From: Methyloversatilis discipulorum
Lineage (GTDB): Bacteria > Pseudomonadota > Gammaproteobacteria > Burkholderiales > Rhodocyclaceae
NCBI RefSeq assembly: GCF_018780585.1
Contig: NZ_JADMJL010000001.1
Coordinates: 1-41,083 of the forward strand
Length of the DNA stretch: 41,083 bases
Direction of reading: 5' to 3'
Both the position numbers and the translations under genes were made by a program. Positions 4,510 through 41,047 of the stretch are shown piece after piece; position 1 is the stretch's first letter, and every line of letters begins with the position of its first letter. The notes beneath the pieces are model-generated. The model was not told the origin of the DNA and searched no databases. It was given only the letters and a program-made list of their open reading frames with translations.

Positions 4510-6372
4510 TCAGCGCTTCGGCAGCTTGAAGGCCCAGAACGAGCCGCCCTGGCTGACCTGCTTGGTCAGCTCGGCCATGTCGCCGCCCCACAGTGGCACG
4601 GCGCCGCCGTAGCCGGAAGAAATGCCGATGTACTGTTCGCCATCCTGTTCCCAGGTGATGGGCACCGACACCACGCCGGAGCCGGTCTGGAATTTCCAGA
4701 CTTCCTTGCCGGTCTTGGCGTCGAAGGCCTTCACGTAGCCATCGGAGGTGCCGGTGAACACCAGGCCGCCGGCGGTGGTCAGCGTGCCGGCCCACAGCGG
4801 GAACTGTTCCTTGTGCTCCCAGGCGATCTTGCCGGTCTTCGGATCGATCGCGCGCAGGACGCCGACGTGGTCGTCGAACAGCTTCTTGATCCGGAAGCCC
4901 TGGCCGAGGTAGGCGGCACCCGGCTTGTAGGTCACGTTCTCGGTCCAGTAGTCCATCGCCCAGTGGTTGGCCGGGATGTAGAACAGCTCGGTGTCCGGGC
5001 TGTACGACATCGGCATCCAGTTGGTGCCGCCGAGGAAGGGCGGCGACACGAAGATGGATTCGCCCTTGTCCGCACCGGCCTTGGGCTTCGGCGGATACTG
5101 GCTCTCGACCACGTTGGGCAGGCCGGTCTTCGGATCGAAGCCCTTGGACCAGGTGATACCGTCGACGAAGGGCCAGGCGCCGATCAGCGCGGTCTGCTTC
5201 CACGGGTAGCCGGCGCCGGTGGCCAGCTTTTCGCGGTCGGTCACGAAGAAGTAGCCGTTGCGGTCGGCGTGCGCCGATGCCTTCACCAGCTTGCCGGTCT
5301 TCGGATCCTTGTACTCGAACAGCAGCACCGAGTTGTTGCCGGAGAAGTCCCAGGCGTCGTTCGGCGTGTGCGAGAAGAAGCCCTTCAGTTCGCCGGTCGA
5401 GGCATCGACATAGGCCTGGCCGGAGGTGAACAGGCTGGGCCACTTGGTCGGGCTGTCGCCTTCCTTGGTCCGTTTCCAGGTGTTCCAGGGGGCCGGGTTG
5501 CCGGTGCCGATCACCACCATGTTCTGTTCGACGTCGAACGAGGCGGTCTGCCACGGGGCTCCGCCGCCATGGCTCCAGGCCTCGACCTTGCCGGTTTCGC
5601 GGCTGGGATCATCCGGCCACGACGGCGCCTTGGCGTCGCCGGTCGTCGTGCTGTCCTTGCCGTTCAGGCGACCCATGTGGCCCTCGACCATCGGACGCGC
5701 CCAGATTTCCTCGCCGGTATCGACGTCGCGCGCAAACAGATAGCCGATCACGCCGAATTCGTCACCGGACGAACCGTGCACCAGCATCACGCGACCGGAC
5801 TTCTTGTCCTTGACGATGAAAGGGGCACCCGACATCGTGTAGCCGACCTTGTGGTCGCCCCACTTCTTCGACCAGACGACCTTGCCGGTGTCCTTGTTCA
5901 AGGCCACCATGCCGGCGTCCAGCGTGCCGAAGTACACCTTGTCACCATAGATGGCGGCGCCGCGGTTCACCACGTCGCAGCACGGACGAATGTCGTCCGG
6001 CAGCCGATGTTCGTACGCCCACAGACGCTTGCCGGTCTTGGCGTCGATGGCGTACATGCGGGAGTAGGAGCCGGTGATGTAGATGACGCCGTCGTGCACC
6101 AGCGCCTGGCCTTCCTGGCCGCGCTGCTTCTCGCCGCCGAAGGAATAGGACCAGGCGGGGCTCAGCGATGCGACGGTCTGCGTGTTGATCTGCTTGAGCG
6201 GGCTGTGGCGCTGGGCCTTCATGCCTAGACCATAGGTCAGCACGTCCTTCGTCGTTTTGTCGTCGTTGACGATATCTTCCCAGCTCACCGTCTTGGCGGC
6301 GTGCACCGGGCCTGCTGCGAGGATGCCCAGCGCGATCAGCAGTGCCGGGTTCCTGAGGGCAAACGTTTTCAT
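4510..6372 (-). CDS. PQQ-dependent alcohol dehydrogenase, calcium type (PedE/ExaA-like)
   Basis: Periplasmic quinoprotein oxidising primary alcohols to aldehydes and passing electrons to a cytochrome c550; 620 residues from MKTFALRN, chosen because GAGGAG precedes it and a signal peptide (to VHAA) follows. An eight-bladed propeller is implied by repeated tryptophan-docking segments (DAKTGK..W). The vicinal cysteines C131-C132 (PCCDVVNRG) that stack on PQQ are present. In NDAWDFSGNN the catalytic Asp is D342 and position +2 is Ser344. Known lanthanide enzymes have Asp at +2, so this is predicted to be Ca-dependent. It is transcribed divergently from the SoxYZ-like gene. I find no sigma-54 -24/-12 pair (GG-N10-GC) on the minus strand in its upstream region. 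Confidence 0.93.
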   Translation of the reverse strand: MKTFALRNPALLIALGILAAGPVHAAKTVSWEDIVNDDKTTKDVLTYGLGMKAQRHSPLKQINTQTVASLSPAWSYSFGGEKQRGQEGQALVHDGVIYITGSYSRMYAIDAKTGKRLWAYEHRLPDDIRPCCDVVNRGAAIYGDKVYFGTLDAGMVALNKDTGKVVWSKKWGDHKVGYTMSGAPFIVKDKKSGRVMLVHGSSGDEFGVIGYLFARDVDTGEEIWARPMVEGHMGRLNGKDSTTTGDAKAPSWPDDPSRETGKVEAWSHGGGAPWQTASFDVEQNMVVIGTGNPAPWNTWKRTKEGDSPTKWPSLFTSGQAYVDASTGELKGFFSHTPNDAWDFSGNNSVLLFEYKDPKTGKLVKASAHADRNGYFFVTDREKLATGAGYPWKQTALIGAWPFVDGITWSKGFDPKTGLPNVVESQYPPKPKAGADKGESIFVSPPFLGGTNWMPMSYSPDTELFYIPANHWAMDYWTENVTYKPGAAYLGQGFRIKKLFDDHVGVLRAIDPKTGKIAWEHKEQFPLWAGTLTTAGGLVFTGTSDGYVKAFDAKTGKEVWKFQTGSGVVSVPITWEQDGEQYIGISSGYGGAVPLWGGDMAELTKQVSQGGSFWAFKLPKR

Positions 6373-6563
6373 CCTGACTCCTCTTTCAGTGTTGATCTGT
6401 CGTGTCGTCATCGCGGCCCCGCTTGTTTCGCGGACACAGGGTCGTGATGCGCACTGCAGGTTAGGCAGCACGTGGAGGTGTCGAAGGTTCAAAGCTCCCG
6501 CAGAATCAGGGAGTCGGTCCCGTTTTTCCGGACTGTTTCAGGGATGGACACTTAGTTGTCGAG

Positions 6564-8442: not shown

Positions 8443-8468
8443 TTCGCATCGCAGGAGTGCGGTGCGAA
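8443..8468. promoter_or_regulatory. Inverted repeat upstream of the lanthanide-type dehydrogenase promoter
   Basis: TTCGCATCGCA (8443-8453) and TGCGGTGCGAA (8458-8468) pair over 11 positions, with one G-T wobble and a GGAG loop. It lies 13 bp after the metallohydrolase stop and 26 bp upstream of the -24 GG. It may end the upstream transcript (the T run after it is weak) or serve as an activator site. Confidence 0.5.
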
Positions 8469-8492
8469 CGGGATTTTCTCCTTGTTTTGGGC

Positions 8493-8508
8493 TGGCCCGG
8501 TTTTTGCG
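8493..8508 (+). promoter_or_regulatory. Sigma-54 promoter of the lanthanide-type alcohol dehydrogenase
   Basis: TGGCCC-GGTTT-TTGCG with GG at 8494-8495 and GC at 8506-8507, exactly 10 nt apart. The expected start near 8519 leaves a 60-nt leader ending in GAGGAGGAAGT just before the ATG at 8579. An AcoR-like sigma-54 activator is encoded in the same island. Confidence 0.75.
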
Positions 8509-8578
8509 GTCGGTCTCCTGCCGAAAAAGGGAACCATTCCCTTCGTGCAAGAGAGAAATTCACCAACGAGGAGGAAGT

Positions 8579-10333
8579 ATGAAAGGCTTGCGTAATTCCA
8601 CGCTGTCCAGCCTGCTGGTTGCGGCGTTCGCCGCGATGGCAGCACCGCAGGTCATGGCCGGTGTGACCGACCGTGACATCGAAAACGACGCGAAGACGAC
8701 CGGCGATGTGCTGTCGTGGGGCATGGGCACGGAAGGCCAGCGCTACAGCCCGCTCGACAAGATCAACGTCGGCAACGTCAAGAACCTGGTTCCGGTTTGG
8801 TCGTTCTCGTTCGGCGGCGAAAAGCAGCGCGGTCAGGAATCGCAGCCGCTCGTCGTCAACGGCAAGATGTTCGTTACGGGTTCCTACTCCCGCCTGTACG
8901 CACTCGATGCCAAGACCGGCGCCAAGCTGTGGCAATACGAGCACCGCCTGCCGGACGGCATCATGCCGTGCTGCGACGTGGTGAACCGCGGCGCCGCCGT
9001 GTATGACAACCTGGTCATCTTCAGCACGCTGGACGCACAACTGGTTGCTCTCGACCAGAACACCGGCAAGGTCGTCTGGAAGGAAAAGATCGACGACTAT
9101 CAGGCTGGTTACTCCAATACCGCAGCTCCGATCATTGCCAAGGGCCTGATCCTGACCGGCGTGTCCGGCGGCGAGTTCGGCATCGTTGGCCGTGTCGAGG
9201 CGCGCGACGCCAAGACGGGCAAGATGGTGTGGAGCCGTCCGACCGTCGAAGGCCACATGGGCTACAAGTTCGATGCCGCCGGCAACAAGACCGAAAACGG
9301 CATCAGCGGCACGACCAACGCGACCTGGCAGGGTGACCTGTGGAAGACCGGCGGCGCAGCCACCTGGCTCGGCGGCTCCTACGACGCCAAGACCGGTCTG
9401 GCCTACTTCGGCACCGGCAACCCGGCTCCGTGGAACAGCCACCTGCGTCCCGGCGACAACCTGTACTCCTGCGCGACCGTGGCCATCGACGTTGCCACCG
9501 GCCAGATCAAGTGGCACTTCCAGGGCACGCCGAACGACGGCTGGGACTATGACGGCGTGAACGAATTCGTCACGTTCGACATGAACGGCAAGCGCATGGG
9601 CGGCAAGGCTGACCGTAACGGCTTCTTCTACGTGCTGGACGCGAACACCGGCAAGTTCGAGCGCGGCTTCCCCTTCGTCAAGAAGATCACCTGGGCCAAG
9701 GGCCTGGATGCAGCCGGCAAGCCGATCTTCGATCCGGCCAACCGCCCTGGCGACCCGTCCAAGGGTGCCGACGGCAAGAAGGGTGAAGTGGTGTTCTCCG
9801 CTCCGTCCTTCCTCGGCGGCAAGAACCAGATGCCGATGGCCTACAGCCCGGACACCGGCCTGTTCTACGTGCCGGCCAACGAGTGGGGCATGGAAATCTG
9901 GAACGAGCCGATCACCTACAAGAAGGGTGCTGCCTATCTGGGCGCCGGCTTCACCATCAAGACCATCGACGACAAGTACATCGGCGCGCTGCGCGCGGTC
10001 GATCCCAAGACTGGCAAGATCGTCTGGGAAGTCACCAACAACGCTCCGCTGTGGGGTGGTGTGATGACGACCAAGGGTGGCCTGGTGTTCTGGGGTACGC
10101 CTGAAGGTTTCCTGAAGGCCGCCGACGCGAAGACCGGCAAGGAAGTGTGGTCCTTCCAGACCGGTACCGGCGTCGTGGCGCCCCCGATCACCTGGGAACA
10201 GGACGGCGAGCAGTACATCGGCGTCGCTGCCGGCTGGGGTGGCGCTGTGCCGCTGTGGGGCGGGGACGTGGCCAAGAAGGTCAACTACCTGAACCAGGGT
10301 GGTTCGATGTGGGTGTTCAAGCTGCACAAGTAA
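8579..10333 (+). CDS. PQQ-dependent alcohol dehydrogenase, lanthanide type (PedH-like)
   Basis: Periplasmic quinoprotein alcohol dehydrogenase, 584 residues, signal peptide ending ...AAPQVMAG. It shares with its neighbour the vicinal cysteines C131-C132 (PCCDVVNRG), the propeller docking repeats (DAKTGK.VW) and the C-terminal [11 protein letters not shown]. In [11 protein letters not shown] the catalytic Asp is D323, and the residue two on is D325. That extra Asp is the known hallmark of lanthanide-dependent XoxF and PedH enzymes, so La, Ce, Pr or Nd rather than Ca is predicted as cofactor. A strong ribosome site (GAGGAGG) and its own sigma-54 promoter suggest high, switchable expression. Another sigma-54 promoter lies 20 bp after the stop. 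Confidence 0.93.
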
Positions 10334-10352
10334 TGACATCGACGACCTGTGC

Positions 10353-10368
10353 TGGCATAGCGCTTGCC
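10353..10368 (+). promoter_or_regulatory. Sigma-54 promoter with no downstream protein gene
   Basis: TGGCAT-AGCGC-TTGCC, with GG at 10354-10355 and GC at 10366-10367, exactly 10 nt apart; it is one of the two best matches in the window. The predicted start is near 10379, the first base of a hairpin. No plausible plus-strand gene with a ribosome site follows before the terminator at 10570-10599. Confidence 0.7.
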
Positions 10369-10378
10369 TAAGTCGTAT

Positions 10379-10599
10379 ATCCCGGCGCCTGTGGGCGTCG
10401 GGATAAAGGAAACAAGCGGGCAGGTCGCGGCGGACTGGAGCGACGTACTGGAACTTCAGGCCGAGCCCGCTTCCGGTGGTGTGATCCATCCCCGGTTTCG
10501 CGGCCGTATCCGTTCCGTTACAGGCAGTTTCGGGGTGGTGTTGTTCTCTTCAGTTAGACATGGCTCTTTGGCCGGCTTACCCAAGCCGGCCATTTTTTT
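10379..10599 (+). ncRNA. Candidate sigma-54-dependent structured small RNA (about 220 nt)
   Basis: The predicted transcript starts at a hairpin, ATCCCGGCGCC (10379-10389)/GGCGTCGGGAT (10394-10404), 11 pairs with one wobble and a TGTG loop. Next, AAGCGGG (10414-10420) can pair with CCCGCTT (10466-10472), enclosing a small stem GTCGC (10424-10428)/GCGAC (10440-10444) and a second weak hairpin (CTG...CAG) near 10448-10459, as in a branched RNA. Later CCATCCCC (about 10486) can pair with GGGGTGG (about 10533). It ends at an intrinsic terminator with seven Ts. There is no credible open reading frame: a possible 85-codon frame would have to start at TTG upstream of the predicted transcript start. 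It might also be the 3' UTR of the dehydrogenase mRNA, as no terminator separates them. I recognise no known RNA family. Confidence 0.5.
10570..10599 (+). terminator. Strong intrinsic terminator after the candidate small RNA
   Basis: GGCCGGCTT (10570-10578) and AAGCCGGCC (10583-10591), 9 perfect pairs with a 4-nt loop, followed by A and seven Ts. The T run is on the plus strand only, so it ends transcripts from the dehydrogenase/small-RNA side, not the activator gene. Confidence 0.93.
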
Positions 10600-10726
10600 G
10601 CCTGTCCGAAACGGGCGCTGAGGCACGTGCGGGAGCGATTCCCGCCCGCTGTACAGGTGGAACGTTACTGTACGAAGTGTTCAGTTCCGTGGCTGCCGTC
10701 CTGGCAGTGCCGAGATCAGAGCCTGA

Positions 10727-12694
10727 TCAGCCTTCCTTCAGCTTGCGATAGAGCGTGGTCCGGCTGATGCCGAGCTCGCGCGCTGTAGCGGCCACGTTTC
10801 CTTCGTTGCGCGATAGCGACTCGCGTATTGCGCGCAGCGTGAGGCTGTCGAGGTCACAGGGTGCCTGGGCAGCGACCGCACGGAACTCCGGTTCGCTTGG
10901 TGCGAACGTCGGCGCTCCGCCCAGTTCATCGATGAAGTCGTCCGGGAGGTGGGTCTTGCGGATGCAGCCATCGTCGGCGGCCATCACGCCGGCGGTGCGC
11001 AAAAGATTCGCCAGCTGGCGCATATTGCCCGGCCACGGATGCCGCTCGAACAGCGCGACCACTTCGTCGTCGATGCGCAGCCCCTGCGGAATGGATTCCT
11101 CGCTGGCGAGAATGCGATGCACCAGCGCGCGCAGATCGCTGCGTTCGCGCAGCGGCGGCAGCATCACGGTCAGACCGTTCAGGCGATAGTAGAGGTCGGC
11201 GCGGAAGCTGCCCTGGGCGACCAGGTCGCGCAGCTTACGGTGGGTCGCGCAGATGATGGACAGATCGACCGGTGTTGCGCGGCCGCTGCCCAGCGGAACC
11301 ACGGTGCGCTCCTGCAGCACGCGCAGCAGGCGCGCCTGCAGTGCCAGCGGCATGTCGCCGATTTCGTCGAGGAAGAGGGTGCCACCGTCCGCCTGCATGA
11401 TGCGGCCCGGGTAGCCTTTGCGACGCGCACCGGTGAAAGCACCTTCCTCGTAGCCGAACAGCTCCGACTCGATCAGGCCATCGGGGATGGCGGCGCAGTT
11501 CACGGCTACGAAGGTCTGGTCGCGGCGCGGGCCTTCGTCGTGAATGGCGCGCGCGAGCAGTTCCTTGCCGGTGCCGGTCTCCCCCTGGATCAGCACCGGG
11601 ATGTCCCGCCCGAGCACGCGACGAACCTTTTCTACGACCGCATCCATCTGCGCGTCGCCGGTGCTCAGCCGAGCCAGTCCGCGGTCCTTGGCGATCTGCA
11701 CCCGACTGACCGACTGACCGGATTCCGGACGCTGAACGTCCATGCTGATCACACGGGCCGGCGGACGGCTCTGATTGCCGGCTTGCGGGCGACCGAACAG
11801 CGTGCGCCCGCCGAACAGGCGCAGTTCGAGCATGTCGGTGCCGCGCAGCAGCGGGTCGTACAGTGCGCCCAGCGGCTTGTCGAACATGGAACTGAAGGAG
11901 TGCGTCAGCAGTTCGGCGTGGCTGCGGCCGATCAGCCGACAGGCGCTGCGGTTGGCGGACAGCACGCGACCATCCTGGTCGAAGGCGAGCAGGGCCTCGA
12001 ACACGGTGCCGATCAGTTCCTGCTGGACATGACAGTGCAGCAGGAAACCGTCCGGGAAGGCGTGCGCGAACATCTGGTTCTCGATGGTCTGCACCGCCAG
12101 ATTGATCAGCGCGAGGCTGTGATGCGACGGATTGCGCGAGTCGCCCGTGACGTCAAGCACGCCGAGCATGCGGCTGCAAGGGTCGAAGATGGGCGAGGCC
12201 GAACAGGTGAGGAAGTGGTTGGCCGAGAAGAAGTGCTGCGAACCGTGCACCGACACCGGGACCTTTTCCACCAGCGCCGTGCCGATGGCGTTGGTGCCCT
12301 TGCTTTCCTCCGACCATTCGACGCCGGGCGACAGCGCGACCTTGGAGGCGCGGTCGAGGAAGGTCTGGTCGCCAACCGAATGGATGATGAAGCCCGAGGC
12401 GTTGGTCAGCACGATCATGCTGCCCGAGCGTGCGATCTGCGCGTACAGGCCGTTCATCACCGGCGCCGCGTGCTTGAGCAGCGACTCGTTGCGCTCACGT
12501 TCGGTCAGCAGCAGGTCGCGCCGGGCTCTTTCGACTTCGCGACTGTTCTTGTCGGCGTCGAGGCCGCGGCTGATGCAGCGGCTCCACGACGTTTCGATCA
12601 GCGCCGGCAGGACGCCTGCCGGCACTTCACCGGCGCTGCGCATGATTTCGTGTGCCTGCTCGCTGCGCGCGATGTCGGCGGGGCTTGATTCCAT
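10727..12694 (-). CDS. AcoR-like sigma-54-dependent transcriptional activator
   Basis: Bacterial enhancer-binding protein, 655 residues from MESSPADIAR, chosen because CGGAGGA precedes it. An N-terminal GAF-type sensor region (about 75-210) is followed by a PAS-like region (about 225-290). The AAA+ domain has Walker A GETGTGKE (371-378), the sigma-54-contacting loop GAFTGA (418-423) and Walker B TLFLDEIGD. A Fis-type helix-turn-helix ends the protein (NVAATARELGISRTTLYRKL). There is no phosphorylatable receiver domain, so it probably senses a small molecule directly, perhaps an alcohol or aldehyde. It is divergent from cytochrome c550, whose promoter is sigma-54 type, and other -24/-12 promoters lie around it. 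That makes it the likely controller of the island. Confidence 0.93.
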   Translation of the reverse strand: MESSPADIARSEQAHEIMRSAGEVPAGVLPALIETSWSRCISRGLDADKNSREVERARRDLLLTERERNESLLKHAAPVMNGLYAQIARSGSMIVLTNASGFIIHSVGDQTFLDRASKVALSPGVEWSEESKGTNAIGTALVEKVPVSVHGSQHFFSANHFLTCSASPIFDPCSRMLGVLDVTGDSRNPSHHSLALINLAVQTIENQMFAHAFPDGFLLHCHVQQELIGTVFEALLAFDQDGRVLSANRSACRLIGRSHAELLTHSFSSMFDKPLGALYDPLLRGTDMLELRLFGGRTLFGRPQAGNQSRPPARVISMDVQRPESGQSVSRVQIAKDRGLARLSTGDAQMDAVVEKVRRVLGRDIPVLIQGETGTGKELLARAIHDEGPRRDQTFVAVNCAAIPDGLIESELFGYEEGAFTGARRKGYPGRIMQADGGTLFLDEIGDMPLALQARLLRVLQERTVVPLGSGRATPVDLSIICATHRKLRDLVAQGSFRADLYYRLNGLTVMLPPLRERSDLRALVHRILASEESIPQGLRIDDEVVALFERHPWPGNMRQLANLLRTAGVMAADDGCIRKTHLPDDFIDELGGAPTFAPSEPEFRAVAAQAPCDLDSLTLRAIRESLSRNEGNVAATARELGISRTTLYRKLKEG

Positions 12695-12860: not shown

Positions 12861-12876
12861 TGGCACGATTCGTGCA
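12861..12876 (+). promoter_or_regulatory. Sigma-54 promoter of cytochrome c550 (pedF-like)
   Basis: TGGCAC-GATTC-GTGCA: a perfect -24 hexamer, with GG at 12862-12863 and GC at 12874-12875 exactly 10 nt apart. The expected start near 12887 gives a leader of about 43 nt with GGAGGAG before the ATG at 12930. Confidence 0.85.
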
Positions 12877-12929: not shown

Positions 12930-13370
12930 ATGAAAGCAGGAGCCGCAACTTTGAAGACGACGGCCATCGTCACCGCGCTGATCGCACTGGGCAGCATGAC
13001 CACGATGCGTGTCGAAGCTCACGGCGACGTCGTGCCGCAGGCCGTCGATGTCAGCACGCTGAAGGCGCTGGGCGCCGAGTGGCGCAAAGAGAATCCCTAC
13101 CGCGGCGACAAGGAAGCGGTCCGCGTCGGCAGCTCCGCCTACAACCAGAACTGTGCGCGCTGCCACGGTCTGGAAGCCGTCAGCGGCGGCATTGCCCCGG
13201 ATCTGCGCATGCTCCCGATCGACGCCGAAACCGACGACTATTTCATCAACACCGTGCGCCGCGGCCGCGTGCGCAACGGCGCCGTCTACATGCCGCCGTT
13301 CGAGGAAGCGCTGTCGCAGGAAGCCATGTGGGCCATCCGTGCCTACATCGAAACCCGTCATGAAGACTGA
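12930..13370 (+). CDS. pedF: Cytochrome c550, PedF type
   Basis: Periplasmic monohaem cytochrome of 146 residues that takes electrons from PQQ alcohol dehydrogenases and hands them to the respiratory chain. The signal peptide ends ...VEA before HGDVVPQAVD. Haem is bound at C75-ARC78-H79, and Met121 in VYMPPF is the likely axial ligand. ALGAEWRKENPYRGD and YNQNCARCHGLEAVSGGIAPDLR (read in two parts, residues 48-60 and 71-93) are typical of PedF-type c550 proteins, so I use that symbol. The start follows GGAGGAG. Its 3' end overlaps the next gene by 11 nt. Confidence 0.9.
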   Translation: MKAGAATLKTTAIVTALIALGSMTTMRVEAHGDVVPQAVDVSTLKALGAEWRKENPYRGDKEAVRVGSSAYNQNCARCHGLEAVSGGIAPDLRMLPIDAETDDYFINTVRRGRVRNGAVYMPPFEEALSQEAMWAIRAYIETRHED

Positions 13371-18690: not shown

Positions 18691-18790
18691 GTGGCGGGTC
18701 TCCCCGCATCGTGGCGCGGTGAACCTGGTCAGGTCCGGAAGGAAGCAGCCACAGCTGCTCACCACGAGTGCCGGGGGTCAGGCTCGCCAC
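18691..18790 (+). ncRNA. ffs: Signal recognition particle 4.5S RNA
   Basis: Scaffold RNA of the bacterial SRP, which with Ffh targets membrane proteins to the translocon. The universally conserved domain IV sequence GGTCAGGTCCGGAAGGAAGC (with the GGAA tetraloop) is at 18727-18746, continuing AGCC, and is matched by GTGCCGGGGGTCAGG on the 3' side. The ends pair as GTGGCG (18691-18696) with CGCCAC (18785-18790), giving the about 100-nt rod seen in proteobacteria. A T-containing tract (CCTCCCTTTTCTGC) follows. A position just before dnaX is common. Exact ends are estimated from pairing. Confidence 0.93.
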
Positions 18791-18840
18791 CCCTCCCTTT
18801 TCTGCAGTCCGCACAGCCGTCCTCTTACGCCAGCGTCCAG

Positions 18841-40167: not shown

Positions 40168-40356
40168 ATCGCGAGCAAGCTCGCACCCACGGAAATCTGG
40201 CCCAGACGATGGATCGGGCGTGCTTTTGTGGGAGCGGCCTTGGCCGCGATGCGGCAGGTGAAGCCGTGGTGCCCATGTTCCGGTCGGGATCGCGAGCAAG
40301 CTCGCTCCCACCAGGTGGGGCGGCGCGGGTAGGTGGGAGCGACCTCTGGTCGCGAT
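40168..40356. repeat. REP/BIME cluster upstream-side of the RAYT gene
   Basis: Four REP units in alternating orientation: 40168-40190 (ATCGCGAGCAAGCTCGCACC), 40228-40250 (GTGGGAGCGGCCTTGGCCGC), 40289-40311 (ATCGCGAGCAAGCTCGCTCC) and 40333-40356 (GTGGGAGCGACCTCTGGTCG). Each contains a short hairpin (GCGAGC/GCTCGC or GCGGCC/GGCCGC). The spacer GAAATCTGG...GACGATGGATCGGG recurs in the cluster at 40909-41047. Confidence 0.92.
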
Positions 40357-40908: not shown

Positions 40909-41047
40909 TCGCGAGCAAGCTCGCTCCCACAGAAATCTGGCTCCGACGATGGATCGGGAAGGCTTTGGTGGGCGCGGCCTTGGCCGCGATGGGGCGGGTG
41001 GCGCCGTGGCGTCCTTGTTTTAGGCCGGATCGCGAGCAAGCTCGCTT
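40909..41047. repeat. REP/BIME cluster on the other side of the RAYT gene
   Basis: Three REP units: 40909-40930 (TCGCGAGCAAGCTCGCTCCC), 40968-40990 (GTGGGCGCGGCCTTGGCCGC) and 41029-41047 (ATCGCGAGCAAGCTCGCTT). Together with their spacers they form an imperfect direct repeat of 40168-40308 of about 120-140 bp. The block runs to the window edge and may continue. Confidence 0.92.

Follow-up and report, generated by a model that had tools for sequence, protein, structure and literature searches.

A predicted sigma-54-type small RNA gene, conserved within Methyloversatilis, between a lanthanide-type alcohol dehydrogenase gene and a sigma-54 activator gene

The Methyloversatilis discipulorum DNA analysed here (the window, 41,083 nucleotides) carries two convergent genes, between which a candidate small RNA gene is found (Table 1). 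The first encodes a PQQ alcohol dehydrogenase whose stop codon ends at position 10333. Its translation contains the motif WDYDG, where that of another gene of the window (4510-6492) reads WDFSG; we take DYD to be the mark of a lanthanide-type enzyme and the WDFSG gene to specify the calcium enzyme. The second gene, whose start was assigned at an ATG with a ribosome site, encodes a sigma-54 activator. Comparison of 13 Methyloversatilis genomes showed that the two genes flank the RNA stretch in every one of them, identity to the 12 relatives being 92-99.6% for the dehydrogenase (over the part present) and 83-99.6% for the activator. The gap between the two, both stop codons counted, ranges from 156 to 399 nt, and much of it is unalignable across the genus.

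Table 1. Features of the dehydrogenase-activator region (window coordinates).
Feature	Position	Strand	Remarks
PQQ alcohol dehydrogenase, lanthanide type (PedH/ExaF-like)	8462..10333	+	Pfam PQQ, TIGR03075; start as mechanically listed
Inverted repeat, 13 pairs, holding the promoter	10344..10374	.	128/143 cells pair in 11 promoter-bearing sequences
Sigma-54 type -24/-12 promoter, TGGCAT-N5-TTGC	10353..10367	+	GGCAY-N5-TTGC in 11/13 genomes; strict form rare genome-wide
Predicted small RNA, 221 nt here	10379..10599	+	3′ part kept in 13/13 genus genomes; both ends predicted
5′ terminal hairpin at predicted +1	10379..10404	+	Helix from base 1 or 2 in 11/11 promoter-bearing genomes
Outer helix 10414-10421/10465-10472 around inner hairpin 10435-10440/10454-10459	10414..10472	+	Compensatory changes; one position has four pair types
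Possible pseudoknot or alternative helix 10423-10429/10499-10505	10423..10505	+	All cells pair in 6 rows
Adjacent hairpin 10473-10480/10488-10495	10473..10495	+	4/7 pairs changed on both sides, all cells paired
Invariant 11-mer ACATGGCTCTT, candidate seed	10558..10568	+	13/13 genomes
Intrinsic terminator, 10-bp stem + T7	10569..10599	+	Both-side changes in 2/8 counted pairs
Sigma-54 activator, convergent with dehydrogenase	10727..12694	-	Pfam AAA+, Fis-type HTH; GAFTGA motif
Second sigma-54-like site TGGCACGATTCGTGCA	12861..12876	+	53 nt before divergent cytochrome c gene
Cytochrome c gene, divergent from activator	12930-13370	+	Cytochrome c domains

The first-pass annotation of this DNA had noted a near-consensus -24/-12 site after the dehydrogenase stop codon. 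The site is indeed present: TGGCATAGCGCTTGCC, at 10353-10368, agrees with the sigma-54 consensus TGGCACG-N4-TTGC (as printed in PMC3224663) at 9 of its 11 fixed bases. Without the genus comparison it would be unremarkable, because looser sigma-54-like matches (two mismatches at most) are no commoner in the window (16) than in shuffled sequences (21.3). Eleven of the 13 genomes have GGCAY-N5-TTGC, starting at position 7-26 from the first base of the stop codon, and these 11 represent five sequence types with differing surroundings. The fixed letters of the motif among the 11 result from selection of the sequences, the part not so constructed being its presence in 11/13 genomes and its shared place. 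A scan of the whole own genome for the strict motif TGGCAYN5TTGCA gave 9 places, and its reversed control gave 1. The nine do not include the window copy, which has TTGCC at its end, unlike the orthologues in G001, G010 and G004 with TTGCA. The two genomes from which the motif is absent (L006 and L011; best other sites there, 8 and 7 of 11) retain the 11-mer and the terminator. The occurrence of the motif in most of the genus, close after the stop codon and in five sequence types, together with the rarity of its strict form, favours a promoter belonging to the RNA itself.

Counting 12 nt from the promoter GC leads to 10379, exactly where the annotation had put the start; an 11-bp hairpin (10379-10404) opens with this base. 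The base at GC+12 opens a stable helix, as base 1 or 2, in all five sequence types, the sequence of the helix differing between clades; in L009 the helix at the predicted start closes a larger fold. The mean energy of 36-nt windows beginning 2-30 nt past the GC is lowest at 10-12 nt (-18.0, -18.3 and -18.0), amounts to -17.3 at 9 and 13 nt, and lies at -5 to -8 from 18 nt onward. This profile supports the predicted +1 at 10379, with the start to be read as approximately GC+12 and its exact base left unfixed because the minimum is broad. The breadth of the minimum and the selected invariance of the promoter letters slightly temper our confidence in the promoter and in the interpretation as a whole. 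Even so, the comparison suggests that the RNA probably uses a sigma-54 promoter of its own.

The promoter lies within an inverted repeat. When the arms of the repeat are slid, 40-70 cells pair, as opposed to 128/143 in register, and up to four pair types are seen per position; the stem letters around the promoter vary across the five sequence types while the site stays. The repeat could form a hairpin in dehydrogenase mRNA that reads through, and such a hairpin over the promoter may protect or shape the 3′ part of that mRNA. It may be selected for a reason other than the promoter, because L006 and L011 have a hairpin at the matching place and no promoter; in our judgement, promoter and hairpin represent two constraints on one stretch. 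These observations bear on an explanation in which the conserved part is the 3′ UTR of the dehydrogenase mRNA with its terminator, the RNA is excised from this transcript, and the sigma-54-like site plays a minor part or merely accompanies the hairpin. The two motif-less genomes, which keep the 11-mer and the terminator, fit this explanation, as does the folding of the first 62 nt into a hairpin just past the stop codon in 12 of 13 genomes (the minimum-energy fold of L001 differs). Furthermore, there is no other terminator-like site on the + strand between 10333 and 10569, and the terminator is common to the RNA and the upstream dehydrogenase mRNA, as in 3′ UTR-derived small RNAs. The explanation is nonetheless unlikely, given that GGCAY-N5-TTGC is found in 11/13 genomes and five types despite the changing stem letters, and that a 5′ helix starts from GC+12 in all five. 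Alternatively, one pool might be fed by primary transcripts from the sigma-54 promoter as well as by processed read-through of the dehydrogenase gene, the RNA reporting both the state of the activator and the expression of the dehydrogenase. The absence of a terminator-like site between the dehydrogenase stop codon and the RNA's terminator and the tolerated loss of the promoter in 2/13 genomes would suit such a dual source, in which the processing step would be an assumption; we regard this alternative as doubtful.

The 232-nt stretch folds better than its shuffled versions (z -3.0; 1 of 200 as good). Pairing was counted in an alignment of six rows carrying a long form of the element, three of which are near identical, so that about four lineages are represented; L009 and L011, of middle length, are outside the count. 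Among 38 pairs in five helices, 96.9% of the 228 cells pair, against 30-50% in slid versions. Both-side changes affect 16 of the 38 pairs, against 4.7 in shuffles, and 0 of 500 shuffles reach 16, the scored structure being favoured in that it was partly derived from the same six sequences. With no structure supplied, RNAalifold recovers from the same alignment the outer helix, the inner hairpin, the adjacent hairpin and the terminator. The 10423-10429/10499-10505 helix is not part of this consensus; it crosses the outer helix and shows one both-side and one one-side change, hence its weaker support. The compensatory changes back four internal helices of the long form, one of them a possible pseudoknot, to differing degrees. 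The three-way-like fold of the annotation is partly upheld: the AAGCGGGC/GCCCGCTT helix is real and covarying, and in the consensus encloses one extended hairpin rather than two small stems, the second hairpin lying just outside.

Methyloversatilis universalis EHg5 (G004/L024) carries the long form. In five other genomes, a short form of 86-87 nt consists of the 5′ hairpin, a linker with the 11-mer and the terminator, the structured middle being absent. According to the predicted folds, the 11-mer is partly unpaired in the short form and weakly paired in the long-form consensus, where RNAalifold matches it with an upstream G/U-rich stretch showing no both-side change.

The 3′ part is the most constant portion of the element. 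In 13/13 genomes ACATGGCTCTT runs directly into a terminator that is rich in GC and has a T-run of 7-8. The terminator stem spans 10569-10592, with T7 behind it; the annotation was right about stem and T-run and gave the stem 9 bp where there are 10. All 80 cells of the counted terminator pairs are paired while the stem sequence varies, and the 11-mer, outside the stem, does not vary. An invariant segment of this sort, kept in 13/13 genomes, is a feature of trans-acting base-pairing small RNAs. The shared synteny and the preservation of the 11-mer, when much of the gap cannot be aligned, favour the presence of an RNA gene.

These data also bear on the idea that the region is a plain terminator region with chance motifs and no functional RNA. 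Similar stems are common: a covariance model covering the 3′-terminal 63 nt gives many weak matches at model positions 35-63, and 113 of 300 genomes of the order (the own one included) are matched at E <=0.05. Chance motifs would hardly explain, however, an 11-mer that stays unvarying beside a varying stem in 13/13 genomes, nor helices that covary far from the terminator. Moreover, a second dehydrogenase copy in the own genome, 82% identical, is followed by a terminator and lacks the 11-mer. We consider the plain-terminator explanation very improbable, and the genus comparison makes it highly likely that the element is a functional RNA. Behind the second copy (L084), GAGCGAGCTTGCT recurs, which is part of TGGGAGCGAGCTTGCT, an identical 16-mer at 40295-40310 and 40914-40929 (-) of the window, and resembles a dispersed palindromic repeat.

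Coding capacity could be set aside with greater assurance still. An 85-codon TTG frame spans the region and an ATG falls inside the 11-mer, the two points in favour of a small protein gene. The open frames, however, shift between relatives, have no common start and run through the terminator, and the ATG frame ends after 3 codons in L007, L008 and L011. A small protein gene is thus scarcely credible, in agreement with the annotation, which had seen no fitting coding frame. Non-coding character and an intrinsic terminator, both seen here, are expected of a sigma-54-dependent bacterial small RNA.

A search of 150 related genomes with the stretch gave 14 matches: the own genome, 12 of the same genus, and G018, where the match is 31 nt of terminator only. 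Locus L014 was left out of the alignments, its match being confined to the terminator. A strict 3′ pattern retrieved 10 stretches from the named genome collection, nine from genus members and one from a Treponema MAG (L019), which we take as chance. The covariance model, built from the 13 genomes so that their scores are high by construction, gives a single strong match in each genus genome (61-85.5 bits), followed by 26.8 bits for the next match. Over the 300 genomes of the order, the own copy scores 85.5 bits and the next 35.6; the 11-mer is in none of the best seven off-genus matches, whose alignments were read. Eighteen places were inspected for the 11-mer core: the second dehydrogenase copy and the calcium gene of the own genome, plus 16 dehydrogenase places spread over 14 other genomes. 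None is followed by it. Ten of the 18 have a T-run of at least 6 at 64-150 nt past the stop codon, and in four a weak sigma-54-like site (8/10 fixed bases) is found within 250 nt; the window copy has 10/10 with Y allowed. The dehydrogenase-activator neighbourhood occurs in other families without the RNA, as L076 and L081 have a related activator (51% and 47%) adjoining the dehydrogenase and nothing of the element. Conservation of promoter, stems and terminator among relatives, suggested in the annotation as a test, therefore holds within the genus and does not extend across Rhodocyclales, nothing similar being found outside. In one other genus (L072, L074, L077 and L078), the 3′ UTR of a dehydrogenase homologue contains a C/U-rich stretch, CTTTTTCTCCTCAC, before a terminator, L083 being loosely similar; this is possibly another 3′ UTR RNA.

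Searching Rfam 15 with the whole window at gathering score returned the bacterial small SRP RNA and nothing else (RF00169, 79.9 bits, 18693-18791, + strand, just before a dnaX-like gene), and no family near its cut-off was obtained with 11 of the 13 genus loci at E <=5. The near-matches to anti-hemB, Bp1_781 and suhB were rejected as terminator resemblance. The annotation knew of no described RNA here, which is borne out to the extent that no Rfam family reached its gathering score. Within the accessible portions of the open-licence PMC literature, we found no RNA regulator of a PQQ or lanthanide alcohol dehydrogenase, nor a Methyloversatilis or methylotroph small RNA of such kind, a retrieved RNA-seq paper on Bacillus methanolicus dealing with a methylotroph of another type; no such RNA was found in the accessible part of PMC6028718, and a 2026 paper on the Pseudomonas ped cluster (PMC12997753) never mentions sRNA, small RNA or RpoN.

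The promoter had been described as an orphan. It is not, in that an activator gene adjoins it and a second sigma-54-like site stands at 12861, a positional counterpart of which exists in 10 of the 13 regions. By this arrangement, the activator gene would have a sigma-54 target on either side. The two sigma-54-like promoters were not found to share a binding site. In four genomes, this one included, the RNA is followed by the palindrome CTGTACGAAGTGTTCAG (at 10668 here) with the neighbouring CTGTACAGGTG (10650-10684), a weak lead to a possible activator site. On the strength of the gene order, we lean towards the neighbouring activator as the one that drives the RNA; any link of the RNA to alcohol sensing would likewise follow from the identity of this neighbour.

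Taken together, the data are most likely explained by a sigma-54-controlled, base-pairing small RNA confined to Methyloversatilis. Transcription by sigma-54 RNA polymerase would begin near 10379 under the control of an enhancer-binding activator, for which the product of 10727-12694 is the simplest candidate. The RNA would then fold into the 5′ hairpin, the structured middle (missing in five genomes) and the terminator hairpin. Target mRNAs might be bound, perhaps across their start codons, by the invariant segment ACAUGGCUCUU that precedes the terminator and by the U-tract, which would together serve as pairing seed and Hfq-type module. Judged from sequence comparison, the locus is a real conserved structured RNA element and very probably a sigma-54-type small RNA gene, a new family of a known kind; the annotation's sigma-54-type promoter, folded body and terminator are supported. 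For 10379-10599 as a regulatory small RNA gene in the full sense, with sigma-54, the adjoining activator and an Hfq-type pairing module, the evidence is reasonably favourable, and base pairing as the mode of regulation is somewhat favoured. The small RNA gene interpretation is weakened by the two genomes without the promoter, by the absence of the middle in five and by the failure of the target checks to reveal a conserved target (see below). It is further weakened by the location of the promoter inside a covarying inverted repeat, by the C that ends the window's -12 box, by the weak pairing of the 11-mer in the long-form consensus and by the restriction of the activator-site candidate to four genomes. 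If it is correct, a conserved, single-copy RNA between the lanthanide enzyme and an activator gene offers a specific locus for deletion. This would open post-transcriptional regulation of lanthanide-dependent alcohol oxidation to direct tests, for example in Methyloversatilis universalis EHg5 with its long form.

Besides the RNAs compared here, the Qrr RNAs are a further example of RNAs dependent on sigma-54. NrsZ and CrcZ are sigma-54 RNAs encoded beside the genes of their activators (PMC8395346). Pseudomonas NrsZ (NtrC/RpoN), about 226 nt long, comes from the intergenic region beside ntrC (PMC8395346); the RNA described here differs in having no Rfam match, an alcohol-oxidation rather than a nitrogen neighbourhood, and a genus-specific structure. 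CrcZ, also of Pseudomonas (CbrB/RpoN), resembles it in its RpoN promoter, its position adjoining the activator gene and its connection with carbon metabolism (PMC8395346 and PMC6296734). CrcZ is, however, a 407-nt decoy that sequesters a protein, whereas the present RNA is shorter and has one invariant 11-mer. Escherichia coli GlmY (QseF) likewise has a sigma-54 promoter (PMC7073468). It is a RapZ decoy in a different neighbourhood, unlike the present RNA, which has no Rfam match. The Burkholderia small RNAs anti-hemB (RF02837) and Bp1_781 (RF02423) share the hairpin-linker-terminator layout; their best scores of 30.3 and 23.4 bits are far under the gathering scores of 49.5 and 80, clear agreement being in the terminator. 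Sigma-54 regulation within the same enzyme class is represented by the Azospirillum exaA quinoprotein alcohol dehydrogenase (cited in PMC6115532), where, in the part of that paper accessible, the enzyme gene itself is the target, the regulator is LuxR-type and no RNA is mentioned.

The 11-mer is the complement of AAGAGCCAUGU, a sequence that is similar to the surroundings of a start codon. The annotation had named the calcium enzyme as a possible target. This candidate was rejected: around the start of its gene, the window shows no complementarity of at least 8 nt to the invariant segment. In 3 of 13 regions an 8-mer lies far within the coding sequence, position in the 12 relatives being judged by distance from the RNA. 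The exact 10-mer AAGAGCCATG occurs in the own genome on the RNA's own opposite strand and at one place antisense to a likely coding frame, and thus yields no target. AAGAGCCA is found at 45 places in this genome, against 208 for the reversed control; 30 loci and 12 further stretches were inspected, the other 3 being the RNA itself, 26939 and C77:264708. With one mismatch allowed, the complement of the 11-mer has 21 places, 20 besides itself, and 9 of the 20 put the ATG of the motif at a plausible start, a share that has no matched control (the reversed pattern has 27 places).

Among individual genes, fdsG (NAD-formate dehydrogenase gamma subunit, NF004638) shows 11/11 pairing with an end G-U in G000, G001 and G010 and exact pairing in G005. 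This pairing is lost in G004, G002 and G007, and is thus kept in 4 of the 7 genomes having the gene; fdsG was not found in 6 of the 13, a group that includes every one of the five short-form genomes. As pairing or gene is missing in part of the genus, including six genomes that retain the 11-mer, fdsG cannot explain the constancy of the 11-mer and was rejected as a conserved target. The pqqA copy at C3:28165 has AAGAGCCAT at -32 to -24, with the 9-mer in G000, G001 and G010, and a 7-mer in G004; of the 29 copies parsed (44 strong places, 30 with loci), the remaining 25 have neither. Complementary 8-9-mers also lie near the starts of flgA and of a formate-dehydrogenase-like operon in the own genome (names from translations). 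None of the fdsG, pqqA, calcium enzyme and exact 10-mer checks revealed a genus-wide conserved complementarity. A more elaborate version would have the sigma-54-controlled alcohol-island RNA mask start codons of downstream one-carbon genes (fdsG and others) with its invariant segment and bind ahead of the pqqA copy. The activator would thus tune later oxidation steps and cofactor supply post-transcriptionally, with the pseudoknotted domain of the long form gating the seed; we rate this version as distinctly improbable. The own genome has four scattered strong pqqA places (24-residue PQQ precursor), at C3:28054, C3:38492, C9:22375 and C77:71979, and the one inspected closely (L136) has a terminator of its own and no pqqB directly behind it.
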